Assembly (NCBI GenBank): GCA_937934745.1
Contig: CALGZC010000041.1
Span: 1 to 44,612 of the forward strand
Direction of reading: 5' to 3'
Source: an uncultured Blastocatellia bacterium
GTDB taxonomy: Bacteria; Acidobacteriota; Blastocatellia; Chloracidobacteriales; Chloracidobacteriaceae
Length of the DNA stretch: 44,612 bases
Position 1 is the first letter of the stretch; each line of letters opens with the position of its first letter. Below, piece after piece: positions 36,638 through 41,972 of the stretch. The notes beneath the pieces are model-generated. The model saw nothing but the letters and a program-made list of their open reading frames with translations, was not told the origin of the DNA and did no database searches. The position numbers and the translations under genes were made by a program.

Positions 36638-36910
36638 TCATTCGTTCTCGCCGGACAACGGCGTGTCACTGAGGATCGCCTCGGCTGGTTGCCGGGCGCT
36701 TTCCAAAAGCATCTGGGGAATGCCGTCTTCGATAGGATAAATCCGGCGGCAGCGTGGACACTGGACGCCGTGTCGGTCGGCAGTCACTACGACCTTCACC
36801 CGACACACGACGCAACACAGCACATCAAACATCCACTCGGCTGCTCGTGCAGACGACTCATCCGTCGCAGGTTTTGTCAAGGGGTCTTCGTCAGGGAGCT
36901 TTTTTGTCAT
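36638..36910 (-). CDS. Trm112-like small zinc protein
   Basis: 90 residues with four Cys in VLCCVVCRVKVV and VQCPRCRRIYPIEDGIPQM, the Trm112/UPF0434 signature (CPxC...RxYPIxDGIPxM). In other organisms such proteins partner methyltransferases; in bacteria their role is mostly unknown. An N-terminal Lys/Asp/Glu-rich extension of about 25 residues precedes the domain. It overlaps the upstream gene by 4 bp (ATGA) and the downstream gene by none. Confidence 0.85.
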   Translation of the reverse strand: MTKKLPDEDPLTKPATDESSARAAEWMFDVLCCVVCRVKVVVTADRHGVQCPRCRRIYPIEDGIPQMLLESARQPAEAILSDTPLSGENE

Positions 36911-37734
36911 GGGTGACTTTTATATTCCCGCTTCGATGCCTTCTCACGGACCGTAGAAGAAGCCGGTAACTTCGCCTGAGAGCAGGAACGGCGGGGCACA
37001 CAAAGGGATTCCGACAGGGCACATAACCAGCGCGATGCCGCCTCGTAGTGTTCAAATTGCCGTTCTTCTTCCTGAAACGCCGCCGTGTGGACGCAGCGCC
37101 GGCCGTTGACATGGGTTACGCCATGCTTGATGTGCAGCATTTCGTGATAGAGCACATACTCAACAACCATCGGCGGCACCTGCGGATCGTCCAGCGTCTG
37201 ACTAATTACGATGGTGTGATGGGCGGCGTCATAGTGCCCAAAGGTGCGGCGCGTCCGACGTCGGCTCCAGGTCAGCGCCGGACGCAGCAGCTGGCCGGCA
37301 AAGTACTGCTGGTTGAGTCGGTGAAAAATCGGTTCAAGGTCATAACATCGCCCGCGCGCGCCTGAGATCAGCTTGAAACCACGCTCCCGCCGGCGCTGTT
37401 CTGCCAGTCGAACCACCGGCCGCGAGCGCACATACGCACGAAACACCGCCGTACACTGCTCCGGTACGGGCTTACGAAACAGACGCGCTAACAGAATGCC
37501 GACTACGGCATCAATCACCGACAGTGGGGCATCGGCCAGCATGTCGGAAAGCCGTACCTGCATGACCCCGTCGCGCAGGCGGATCGTGTTGTTAATCCCA
37601 ACGTAGGGGTAGAACGTGATCTCGACGGCGTGCGGCGGCTTAGCGCGCGGCGCAAGGTCTTCTCGCCAACGGGTAACAATTTGCTGGAGGTCGGCATCGG
37701 TTAGACGGTGAAGCGGTCGTGCGGGATAAGCCAT
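36907..37734 (-). CDS. SprT-like zinc metallopeptidase-type protein
   Basis: 275 residues. The zinc motif HEMLHIKHG (HExxH) is at about residues 189-197, followed by VHTAAFQEEERQFEHYEAAS, with a His that may be the third ligand, and an N-terminal helical region. The central part (EPIFHRLNQQYFAG) is the usual lead-in of SprT/Spartan folds. Eukaryotic Spartan digests DNA-protein crosslinks, but for bacterial SprT the target is not known. The C-terminal ~40 residues are basic and Ser/Lys-rich. It overlaps the Trm112-like gene by 4 bp. Confidence 0.8.
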   Translation of the reverse strand: MAYPARPLHRLTDADLQQIVTRWREDLAPRAKPPHAVEITFYPYVGINNTIRLRDGVMQVRLSDMLADAPLSVIDAVVGILLARLFRKPVPEQCTAVFRAYVRSRPVVRLAEQRRRERGFKLISGARGRCYDLEPIFHRLNQQYFAGQLLRPALTWSRRRTRRTFGHYDAAHHTIVISQTLDDPQVPPMVVEYVLYHEMLHIKHGVTHVNGRRCVHTAAFQEEERQFEHYEAASRWLCALSESLCVPRRSCSQAKLPASSTVREKASKREYKSHP

Positions 37735-38421: not shown

Positions 38422-38517
38422 GCTCCCTACGGTCAGAGCCGAGGCTTGGCGCTGAGGGTAGTTCGCATCCGCCCCGTCTTCAACGCCACCCAGCAGCCGC
38501 TGACTTTTGAAGCCTGT

Positions 38518-39531
38518 ATGACCTACGACCTCATGATCATTGGAGCGGGTCCGGCAGGACTCACGGCCGCCTATGCGGCCCAGCAGGCCGGACTCAACTA
38601 CTTGGTGTTAGAGCGGGCCGCCATTGCCCAAACCATTGCCGAATACCCAATTGGCCGCACGTTGTTTTCCACCCCGAATGAAATCGAGCTCCTCCCCGGC
38701 ACACTCCAACCGCAATCCGGCCCCAAACCCACCCGTGAAGAAGTGCTGGGCTACTATACCCGGCTAGCCGTGCGTGACTTGCAGCTACGGATTCATACCT
38801 ATGAGCCGGCCCAGGCTATTCTCCCCACCGGCTCTGGGTTTCAGGTTATCTCTGACCGAGCGGTGTACGAAACGCAGCGGGTCATCGTTGCGACGGGCGG
38901 GTTTGGGTGTCCGCGCCGGCTCAACGTCACCGGTGAGACACCGGCACGTGTGTCATACCGGTTTGTGGAAGCGTTCCCGTACGCGGGGCGGCAGGTCTTG
39001 GTCGTCGGCGGCGGCAACTCGGCCGCAGAGGCTGTACTCGATTTGTGTCGTGCCGGAGCGCAGGTCAGTTGGTCGCTGCGTCGTCCGTCCCTTGACCCCC
39101 GCCCGGAGGATGCCGACCGGGTGGGCATTAAGCCCTGGGTGCGAGAGCCGCTGCTGGCCTGTGCAGCGCACGGAGAAGTCACCGTGCACTATGCCACTAC
39201 CTGTGTGGGCATTACTCCTCACACCGCCCAGCTTCGGCAGGCCGACGGGCCGGTGTATGACGTGCCGTGCGAGCACATTTTCGCGTTGCTAGGCGCCCTG
39301 CCTGACGTTACCCTGTTGGCAGCGGCCGGCGTAACCATTGCCCCCGATGGACGACCTTGCTACCGGACCGACACCAATGAGACGAACGTCCCTGGCCTTT
39401 ATGTTGTCGGCCACCTCACCCGCGAACTCCATATGAAGAACGCCACCACCGTTCCGCGTCGCGTCGTGGACCTCATTGCCCGTGAGCTGGGATCTGCCCA
39501 GCGCGCATCTGCGACGGAGCAGACACACTAA
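38518..39531 (+). CDS. YpdA-like FAD/NAD(P)-dependent oxidoreductase
   Basis: The ATG at 38518 begins MTYDLMIIGAGPAGLTAAYA, an FAD dinucleotide-binding motif; VVGGGNSAAEAVLDL is the NAD(P) motif (about residues 162-176). QTIAEYPIGRTLFSTPNEIE is the YpdA/thioredoxin-reductase-like substrate loop, and no CxxC redox pair is visible, as in YpdA. YpdA enzymes are proposed to reduce bacillithiol disulfide. Length 337 fits. Bacillithiol synthesis genes were not seen. The upstream in-frame residues were discarded as unlike the family. Confidence 0.82.
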   Translation: MTYDLMIIGAGPAGLTAAYAAQQAGLNYLVLERAAIAQTIAEYPIGRTLFSTPNEIELLPGTLQPQSGPKPTREEVLGYYTRLAVRDLQLRIHTYEPAQAILPTGSGFQVISDRAVYETQRVIVATGGFGCPRRLNVTGETPARVSYRFVEAFPYAGRQVLVVGGGNSAAEAVLDLCRAGAQVSWSLRRPSLDPRPEDADRVGIKPWVREPLLACAAHGEVTVHYATTCVGITPHTAQLRQADGPVYDVPCEHIFALLGALPDVTLLAAAGVTIAPDGRPCYRTDTNETNVPGLYVVGHLTRELHMKNATTVPRRVVDLIARELGSAQRASATEQTH

Positions 39532-39558: not shown

Positions 39559-40695
39559 TCAAGCTGCGACATCGCCCGCAGCAGTCCGCAAGTTTGGCAC
39601 CGGTTCCTGTTCAATGTACGCCCGAAGCGCCCTGTGAACAGACGGCTGCGCCGCAAACGGACGCAATGCCGACACCGACAGCCGACGGACATAGCCACGT
39701 CGGGAGGTCAACCCACGTAGCACCAATGGTTCGATGGCCGCTTCATCGCCAAGGCTCGCTAACGCCCGGGCGGCATGGAAAGCGATGTCCTCGTCGGCGG
39801 CAGACACCAGCGCGCGGAGCGCCTCACGGACATCGCGCCCTAACCGTCCCAGTGCAATCGTTGTGTAGGCACGCAACCCATCGCCGATCTCGGCGTCGTA
39901 CAGCGCTTCAAGCGCCGGGAGACTCGCAGCATCTCCCAGTTCGCCCAGCGCGAAGACAATTTCAGCGCGCGACAAAGCCACCCGTCGTTCTGCCGTGAGC
40001 AAAGTCTCCAATGGAAGACGGGCCTCGGCCTCCCCTAGCAACGCCAGTGCGTGGAGGCACATTTCGTGGACTTGTTCGTTGAGTTGCCCGAAGTCATCCC
40101 CGATGCGCACATCGCGAAGCGCCTTGAGAGCTGAAATGGCTTCTGATGCGCCGAGCTTGCCAAGCGCAACAACACAGGCGAATCGGACGCCAGGGCGCCA
40201 ATCTGTCAACCAGTGGGTGAGCGGCACCCAGGCCTGGGTATCATTGAGTTCGCCGAGTGCCAACGCTGCATCTTCACGGAGGACAGCATAGTTCTCACTC
40301 AGCCGAAGGTCGCCTAACGTTGCAACAAGGGGTTCAAAGGCTCGAACATCGCCGTAGTCGCCGAGCGCGACGGCCAGGCTGCCTCGCACCTGAGGCGATA
40401 GCGCCGGATCGGAGGCTAACCACTCGGCGGCTTCATCGGCAGCTTGTTGACGCTGTGTATCTGAAGCCTGCTCATTGCCAAGCACGGCGATAATTTGGTG
40501 GGCACGGGCGCGTTCTTGTTGCTCGTGGGCGGCAGCTTCCAGCCCGAAATCGCCAAGGCGCGTTTTGTACGGACACGCGGCGACAAAGGGGCAGTTCCGG
40601 CAGGACAAGTACATCGCCAAGGCGGGGCACAGTCCACGTGTTTGTCCTTCGGGACGGGATGTCAGGGAGAGCAGCGGATGGATGGGCGTCGCCAT
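39559..40695 (-). CDS. HEAT-repeat (PBS-lyase-like) protein with an N-terminal four-cysteine motif
   Basis: 378 residues. From about residue 75 the protein is a run of HEAT/PBS-lyase repeats (ALGDYGDVRAFEPLVATLGD, ALGKLGASEAISALKALRD, ALGELGDAASLPALEALYD), about eight, forming an alpha-solenoid for binding protein or nucleic acid. The N-terminal stretch GLCPALAMYLSCRNCPFVAA ending in CPY has Cys23, Cys32, Cys35, Cys41, spaced C-x8-C-x2-C-x5-C. That is the spacing of the iron-sulfur ligands in AddB/Dna2/Cas4 (C...C-x2-C-x5-C), so a metal or Fe-S site is plausible. It is divergent from recA. I do not know a described protein with this layout. Confidence 0.8.
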   Translation of the reverse strand: MATPIHPLLSLTSRPEGQTRGLCPALAMYLSCRNCPFVAACPYKTRLGDFGLEAAAHEQQERARAHQIIAVLGNEQASDTQRQQAADEAAEWLASDPALSPQVRGSLAVALGDYGDVRAFEPLVATLGDLRLSENYAVLREDAALALGELNDTQAWVPLTHWLTDWRPGVRFACVVALGKLGASEAISALKALRDVRIGDDFGQLNEQVHEMCLHALALLGEAEARLPLETLLTAERRVALSRAEIVFALGELGDAASLPALEALYDAEIGDGLRAYTTIALGRLGRDVREALRALVSAADEDIAFHAARALASLGDEAAIEPLVLRGLTSRRGYVRRLSVSALRPFAAQPSVHRALRAYIEQEPVPNLRTAAGDVAA

Positions 40696-40916
40696 AGTCT
40701 ATCTCCTCGAAGCATGCACACTCCTCGAAACCTGCGCACCGTCGCTCACATCCACCGGTGTTGACCGGCGTGACCGAAGCCGGCGATGGCGGCCGATGCG
40801 TCTCGCGCTCCTCTTTTCAATCTAGCCCCAAGTCGGTAATGTTCAAAATCTATCTCGGTACCCCTGGGTTGGCTCGCCCACGCCTTTCACTGTTTTTCAC
40901 ACCCAGTGAGCAACGT

Positions 40917-41972
40917 ATGACCGACGAACGACAGGAACGCAACAAAGCAATTGACGCCGCCATTGCCGGCCTTGAAAAGCAATTCGGCAAGGGCGTTGTG
41001 ATGCGGTTAGGTGAACGCCAAGCCCTTGAAGTACCGGCTATTTCCACGACCTGCCTGAGCCTGGACGCAGCCATCGGGATCGGCGGCATGCCGCGTGGAC
41101 GTATTGTTGAAATCTACGGGCCCGAATCCGGTGGCAAGACGACACTGGCCTTACACGTCGTCGCCGAAGCCCAACGGACCGGCGGACAAGTTGCGTTTAT
41201 TGACGCCGAACATGCGCTCGATCCCCGCTACGCCGCCAAACTGGGCGTGGACATTGATAACCTCTTCGTCTCACAACCCGACCACGGCGAGCAGGCGCTT
41301 GAAATTGCCGAAGCGCTAGTCCGCTCGACCGCCTTTGATCTTGTTGTTGTGGATTCGGTGGCAGCACTCGTACCGAAAGCCGAACTGGAAGGTGATATGG
41401 GCGATGCACTGCCCGGCCTCCAGGCGCGGCTGATGTCACAGGCGCTCCGCAAGCTCACCGCCGTTGCCAGTCGAACCAACACGTGCCTCATCTTTATCAA
41501 CCAGATTCGCGAAAAGATCGGTGTCACCTGGGGCTCGCCGGAAACGACAACCGGCGGCCGCGCACTGAAGTTCTATGCTTCTGTGCGGATTGACATTCGC
41601 CGCATGGCATCCATCAAGGATGGCGAGGAAGTCATCGGCAGCCGGACCAGGGCAAAGATTGCCAAAAACAAGCTGGCTCCACCGTTCAAGGAAGTCGAAT
41701 TTGACATCATTTACGGCAAAGGGATTTCACGCGAGGGCGATTTGCTCGACCTCGGCGTCGAGCACAAGTTGATTGAAAAAAGTGGCGCCTGGTTTTCCAT
41801 CAAAGGCGGTGAACGGCTTGGCCAGGGGCGTGAAAATGCAAAGCAGGCGTTGGCGGCAAATCCGGCCTTACGTGAGCGATTGGAGCAGGAATTACGCGCT
41901 ATTTTGATGCCACATCGCGTGCCGGCAACCGGAACTGACAGCATCGCCAAAGCGAAGAGTGCGGCCGAGTAG
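40917..41972 (+). CDS. recA: RecA recombinase
   Basis: Start at 40917 ([20 protein letters not shown]) after a GTGAG-like site; the longer frame has no RecA-like sequence. Seen: [26 protein letters not shown] (Walker A), [32 protein letters not shown] (Walker B), and [20 protein letters not shown] followed by [17 protein letters not shown]. The L2 loop reads [10 protein letters not shown] where E. coli has GVMFGNPETT. Length 351 is typical. ATP-dependent strand exchange and SOS co-protease. A promoter or LexA box was not identified in the 221-bp divergent region. Confidence 0.97.

Follow-up and report, generated by a model that had tools for sequence, protein, structure and literature searches.

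What does a HEAT-repeat protein with four closely spaced cysteines ahead of its solenoid do beside recA in a Chloracidobacterium? The question is raised by a gene in a 44,612-nucleotide stretch of DNA from an uncultured member of the Blastocatellia (contig CALGZC010000041.1; "the window" below). An initial annotation, made from the letters alone, compared the cysteines to the iron-sulfur core of AddB, Dna2 and Cas4 and suggested a redox or DNA damage-related scaffold. The features that bear on the question are as follows.

39559..40695, minus strand: HEAT-repeat protein with an N-terminal four-cysteine module (open reading frame, Pfam, eight aligned orthologues, AlphaFold2)
40549..40635, minus strand: four-cysteine module, residues 21–49, G-L-C23-x8-C32-x2-C35-x5-C41-P-x-K-x3-G-D (cysteine invariance; free copies)
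39565..40461, minus strand: HEAT/PBS-lyase-like solenoid, residues ~79–377 (Pfam, AlphaFold2, fold matches, charge)
40814..40847, no strand assigned: conserved intergenic block, promoter-like by eye (kept in 7/7 genus genomes)
40917..41972, plus strand: recA, the divergent neighbour (named by sequence)

Architecture of the window protein

The coordinates and length first given for the open reading frame are right, as is its description as a HEAT-repeat protein. Its product of 378 amino acids belongs with the HEAT/PBS-lyase HEAT proteins by both relevant Pfam families, HEAT_2 (E = 2e-23; 82.9 bits against a gathering cut-off of 27.7) and HEAT_PBS (E = 3.3e-15; 55.3 bits against 20.9). An AlphaFold2 model built on the eight orthologues described below has a mean pLDDT of 86.9 and contains helices only, being helical from residue 44 onward, and the predicted HEAT solenoid is confident. 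At the N-terminus, residues 1–22 have pLDDT values below 50 and residues 23–50 average ~53–66, with short helices (24–31 and 36–39) placed between the cysteines. The solenoid is acidic: the protein carries a net charge of −15 after the four-cysteine module, and in 8/8 orthologues the HEAT part has a net charge of −13 to −19 and a pI of 4.7–5.1, which speaks against the solenoid binding DNA.

Matches to this part of the protein are generic. Its PDB fold matches begin with designed alphaReps and continue with deoxyhypusine hydroxylase, CpcE and many large HEAT/ARM proteins. Deoxyhypusine hydroxylase needs several His-Glu pairs; it was rejected because the sole such pair conserved in the eight orthologues is H210-E211. 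AlkD-like DNA binding was rejected on the acidity of the HEAT part together with the lack of a Pfam match, and three PADLOC matches whose best stretches all lie in the HEAT part (HEAT-ARM_XIII, 63–239; WGR_XIII, 147–233; HEAT_CxxC_PDDEXK, 107–200) were taken as generic. The best NCBIfam matches are NblB (48.9 bits, cut-off 300) and CpcE (39.8 bits, cut-off 330). These PBS-lyase HEAT proteins resemble the window protein in having a HEAT_2/HEAT_PBS solenoid, but the similarity is confined to that part and falls far below both equivalog cut-offs.

The initial annotation also held that no nuclease follows the cysteines, and none is present among the four Pfam families that match the protein (E up to 1); HhH-GPD glycosylase and AlkD/AlkC domains are likewise missing from these matches. 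Residues 1–81 match no Pfam family, WhiB included, at E up to 10, in a search whose program filters could conceal weak matches.

The protein has six cysteines, at positions 23, 32, 35, 41, 174 and 213, the first four within 19 residues. Their pattern, Cys23-x8-Cys32-x2-Cys35-x5-Cys41, is as first reported, and it is rare by chance: when the protein's own residues were shuffled 20,000 times, C-x2-C-x5-C occurred 17 times and C-x(2–20)-C-x2-C-x5-C twice. Among the open reading frames of at least 90 amino acids kept by our script in the window, C-x2-C-x5-C is unique to this protein. The initial annotation had named loss of the cysteines in orthologues as grounds for giving up its proposal. All four are kept in 8/8 orthologues, and the alignment shows all six to be invariant down to 46% overall identity. 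The orthologues share the block R-G-L-C-P-A-L-A-M ... C-x2-C-P-F-V-x2-C-P-x-K-x2-L-G-D, in which RGLCPALAM, CPFV, P42, K44 and LGD are invariant as well in 8/8.

A free four-cysteine microprotein and a probable metal site

The same block exists on its own. In 11 other Acidobacteriota genomes (G007, G011, G212, G251, G231, G457, G531, G532, G533, G535 and G518) we found a free protein of 50–56 amino acids with the block L-C-x7-C-x2-C-x5-C-P-x-K-x3-G-D; the loci are L053–L056, L059, L068 and L150–L154, whereas L057 and L058 are not members. The first gap is x7 in the free modules, whose C-x7-C-x2-C-x5-C spacing holds in 11/11, versus x8 in the window protein. Since the block stands as a free protein elsewhere, the window protein is a fusion of a four-cysteine module with an acidic HEAT solenoid.

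The distribution of the free module is patchy, also within genera. An N-terminal profile of 62 columns matched 56/396 genomes of the phylum at E up to 0.1, mostly weakly, with six free modules among the 21 non-genus loci listed (L053–L073). A 36-column profile matched 15/396 (E up to 0.01): four fused forms, six free modules (E < 1e-19) and five weak partial matches (E 0.003–0.008) that are not counted as members. Within the class, the same profile matched 12/162 genomes, comprising eight fused, two free and two weak matches, the last again uncounted. In the class of G231, 7/93 genomes matched a module profile at E up to 1e-4, all from one genus. The profiles include the sequences first found, which score high by construction; the modules of G531, G532, G533, G535 and G518 are new finds. 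G533 also gave a further match, a broken one (E 5.7e-6); the four-cysteine pattern missed it, and it was excluded from the counts.

The free modules look like real genes, because changes between close pairs are mostly synonymous and GGAG sites precede them. The modules of G457 and G231 differ by nine synonymous versus one non-synonymous codon change in 36 codons, and those of G212 and G251 by five versus two; distant pairs differ by 12–18 synonymous versus 10–13 non-synonymous of 36 codons. A GGAG site lies just upstream in five of the six modules examined, the exception being G011. By these codon comparisons the free module looks to be under selection. After the core comes a basic tail, with a net charge of +3 to +9 in the seven modules measured. 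AlphaFold2 leaves a free module unfolded, at pLDDT 49.

The module is uncatalogued, being absent from the Pfam and NCBIfam copies searched. Four free modules gave no NCBIfam match and no Pfam match over cut-off, the sole hit being to Fer4_16, which one of them matched below threshold (E 0.023). Nor did the four-cysteine region of the window protein match any known family over the Pfam cut-off, which bears on the second ground for refutation set by the initial annotation, a zinc site of a known family. The module profile matched no PDB chain. Sequence strings of the block were absent from the literature searched, which carries little weight, as sequence is rarely printed. Plasmid searches with three module queries returned three, two and two records at E 1–10 (among them an integrase in two records, an amidohydrolase and unnamed stretches), which we read as chance, and a viral-contig match (L106) covers the tail only, without the cysteine block. 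Neighbours of the free module vary between the genomes of different families examined and indicate no function. In G007, a molybdopterin oxidoreductase gene (L075:9545-11812, minus strand) is followed ~150 bp downstream, on the same strand, by the free module.

What might such a module bind? We measured by script, in fetched sequences, the gap between the C-x2-C-x5-C core and the nearest earlier cysteine. The core is common to E. coli nth, mutY and fnr, one phage WhiB and one phage Cas4, with gaps of x6, x6, x3, x30 and x29, respectively. FNR and WhiB are [4Fe-4S] proteins, and the fourth ligand of FNR is the far Cys122; to our knowledge, neither these two nor RseC carries HEAT repeats. The products of nth and mutY are [4Fe-4S] proteins according to the available part of PMC5295032, as is Cas4 in the part of PMC3466216 at hand, and C-x2-C-x5-C gave an oxygen-sensitive [4Fe-4S] cluster in RseC, as the accessible portion of PMC11729352 describes. 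WhiB, FNR and RseC thus resemble the window protein in having C-x2-C-x5-C with an earlier cysteine, but in RseC that cysteine is, in the same portion, unconserved, whereas in the window protein and its orthologues it is conserved.

By spacing, the nearest of these yardsticks is the EndoIII/MutY loop, C-x6-C-x2-C-x5-C. Both have four contiguous cysteines, and nth, like the window protein, has a lysine three residues after the last. The first gap nevertheless sets them apart (x6 versus x8, and x7 in 11/11 free modules), and EndoIII and MutY carry an HhH-GPD domain, whereas the window protein has none and its N-terminus is without a Pfam match. The likeness to the iron staple of AddB, Dna2 and Cas4 proposed at the outset stands for the core itself, a spacing that several [4Fe-4S] proteins use, but kinship is unsupported. 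In Cas4, the excerpted text of PMC3466216 places three of the four cysteines toward the C-terminal end and the remaining one toward the N-terminal end, together with a RecB nuclease; the window protein instead has a gap of x8 and no nuclease. Because the core recurs in several unrelated [4Fe-4S] proteins, the module likely binds such a cluster, judging by its spacing, yet the core assigns it to no family.

The alternative that survives best is a structural zinc site capping the HEAT scaffold, with no redox role, which we hold as a tentative possibility. Zinc is possible at a site where four cysteines lie in a compact frame, and no Fe-S family scored over cut-off, Fer4_16 staying below threshold in the one free module, of four, that it matched. 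However, the protein lacks the pair of C-x2-C knuckles often seen at zinc sites, and the x2-then-x5 spacing is that of all five Fe-S-type proteins compared. A relative of AddB and Cas4 does hold zinc in place of the Fe-S cluster with its structure unchanged, as reported in the available part of PMC3466216.

Phototrophy, recA and the distribution of the fusion

Full-length orthologues occur in 8/162 genomes of the class (profile search, E up to 1e-20): the window genome, six further Chloracidobacterium genomes and G008, from another genus of the same family. The same 8/162 genomes have a match to a type-I reaction centre (PsaA/PsaB-type), a partial one of 30 bits versus a cut-off of 23.3 over ~115 of 711 positions, and the FMO antenna protein is found in the same 8/14 genomes of the order. 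Beyond the eight orthologues, a whole-protein search that returned some match in 41/58 genomes (E up to 0.001) found HEAT-type proteins of ~26–47% identity. A search among close relatives returned three loci, two from Chloracidobacterium and a HEAT match in Haloarcula (26%, residues 87–318), which was dropped.

One explanation of this co-occurrence is that the protein is a phototrophy-specific assembly factor, for example one that handles the cofactors, Fe-S or pigment, of the reaction centre or the chlorosome, as a HEAT-type analogue of CpcE or NblB. Its best NCBIfam matches are to just these two families, but far below cut-off and in the HEAT part only. The carriers, moreover, form one clade. 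This was seen in a tree built on a second protein of the Clp type, which we take to be ClpB-like, from 13/14 genomes of the order (G013 omitted). That protein was used because neither gyrA, which had no match in G008 at E 1e-100, nor the window's ClpC-like protein, which as a query found only shorter matches of 47–54% to another Clp, could place G008. In the tree, G008 branches as the sister group of the genus, moderately supported (85/92, short of what the tool marks with a star), and G007 and G009 fall outside Chloracidobacterium plus G008. The co-occurrence with phototrophy is therefore confounded with descent, and amounts to one event rather than eight. Nor are the genes close together: on the 2.683-Mb contig of G001 that carries them all, the orthologue maps to 50.6 kb, whereas FMO and the reaction centre map to ~2.585 Mb; a circular contig would still leave ~150 kb between them. 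The word "heat" is absent from the main text, as available, of a paper on the reaction-centre structure (PMC9751088). We thus consider a dedicated phototrophy factor unlikely. Among the genomes searched so far, the full-length fusion is limited to one phototrophic clade.

G008 itself, outside Chloracidobacterium, contains FMO and the type-I reaction-centre match (loci L034 and L083). The class thus includes a second genus of phototrophic acidobacteria, represented by this fragmented genome of ~1090 contigs.

The neighbourhood of the gene bears on a different possible role. The initial annotation noted that the gene is divergent from recA, which is true in the window, where recA starts at 40917, 221 bp away, and in 7/7 genus genomes, at distances of 182–250 bp. 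The pair persists although the genes outside it differ among six of the seven genus genomes, those with flanks listed (the window included), and a conserved intergenic block lies between the two. Together with a spacing closest to nth and mutY, this could point to a DNA repair factor co-expressed with recA, a HEAT scaffold bearing an EndoIII/MutY-like cluster loop. The idea of a DNA-damage role had recA adjacency as its sole basis, however, and the adjacency is absent on the 5,484-base contig of G008, where a FecR-domain gene precedes the HEAT gene and a DUF3108 gene overlaps its end. Missing adjacency there and an acidic HEAT part make the case for repair weak, and AlkD/AlkC and HhH-GPD are missing from the Pfam matches. 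No other site in the window's genome matches the block at 40814–40847 with three or fewer mismatches, a pattern more consistent with a promoter private to this locus than with an operator shared by a regulon; a simple promoter scan found nothing. Overall, we regard a repair factor as quite improbable.

Other genes near this locus may be recorded here. An amine-oxidase-fold gene, presumably resembling phytoene desaturase, adjoins recA on the side away from the HEAT gene in four genus loci (L081:6941-8317, L082:6928-8313, L031:3142-4509 and L032:3278-4642; the L081 copy is PF01593). In the window, a YpdA-like flavoprotein (38446–39531, plus strand; TIGR04018, 249.6 bits, cut-off 339.9) is convergent with the HEAT gene, and a SprT-like metallopeptidase lies at 36907–37734 (minus strand; PF10263, E 4.5e-8).

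Finally, a true AddB/Dna2/Cas4 relative that has lost its nuclease is rejected as very improbable indeed, since, for all that there are a weak Cas4-type match (phrog_1706, E 0.28) and, among 11 chance-level phage records at E 0.9–10, 10 from Gordonia phages of which six are annotated exonuclease or Cas4, the protein has no nuclease match, its first cysteine is adjacent to the others rather than apart with the nuclease (as the family is described in the available text), and the module stands alone elsewhere as a 50–56-residue protein.

A candidate adaptor

The explanation that we favor, at about an even chance of being right, is that the window protein is a cytoplasmic adaptor created by fusion. 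Its four-cysteine module, most likely carrying a [4Fe-4S] cluster, sits at the N-terminus of an acidic solenoid of HEAT repeats, which would dock a partner protein. Other Acidobacteriota have the module as a microprotein that stands alone and ends in a basic tail; the phototrophic clade of Chloracidobacterium has it joined to a HEAT scaffold of its own. The cluster could sense redox state or oxygen, or could stiffen the first long helix (residues 44–72), and its state may control which partner the HEAT surface holds. The favored client would belong to the phototrophic way of life, for example to the assembly of cofactors or to protection in a cell using light and oxygen, a suggestion that we consider weak. 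What is observed is the fusion, the conservation of its cysteines and, in the genomes searched, its confinement to one clade; metal type, redox role and partner are what we infer.

Several observations count against this adaptor. The zinc-for-cluster swap in the AddB/Cas4 relative (PMC3466216, as available) weighs on the [4Fe-4S] assignment, as do the lack of an Fe-S family over the Pfam cut-off or a matching PDB chain, and the low AlphaFold2 confidence at the N-terminus and in the free module. Against the phototroph part stand the one-clade co-occurrence, the gap in G001 and the free modules of G007 and G011, two genomes in which a reaction centre was not found. A bolder version of the adaptor seems rather doubtful to us: that the microproteins, with their four invariant cysteines and basic tails, are a [4Fe-4S] family of small redox or oxygen sensors in Acidobacteriota, and that fusion to HEAT in the Chloracidobacterium clade made a redox-gated adaptor reporting oxygen to photosynthetic or repair machinery.

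If the module does bind a cluster, it would represent a minimal Fe-S microprotein family new to the Pfam and NCBIfam copies searched, and the fused form would offer a handle on the role of this module in the phototrophic acidobacteria of the class.
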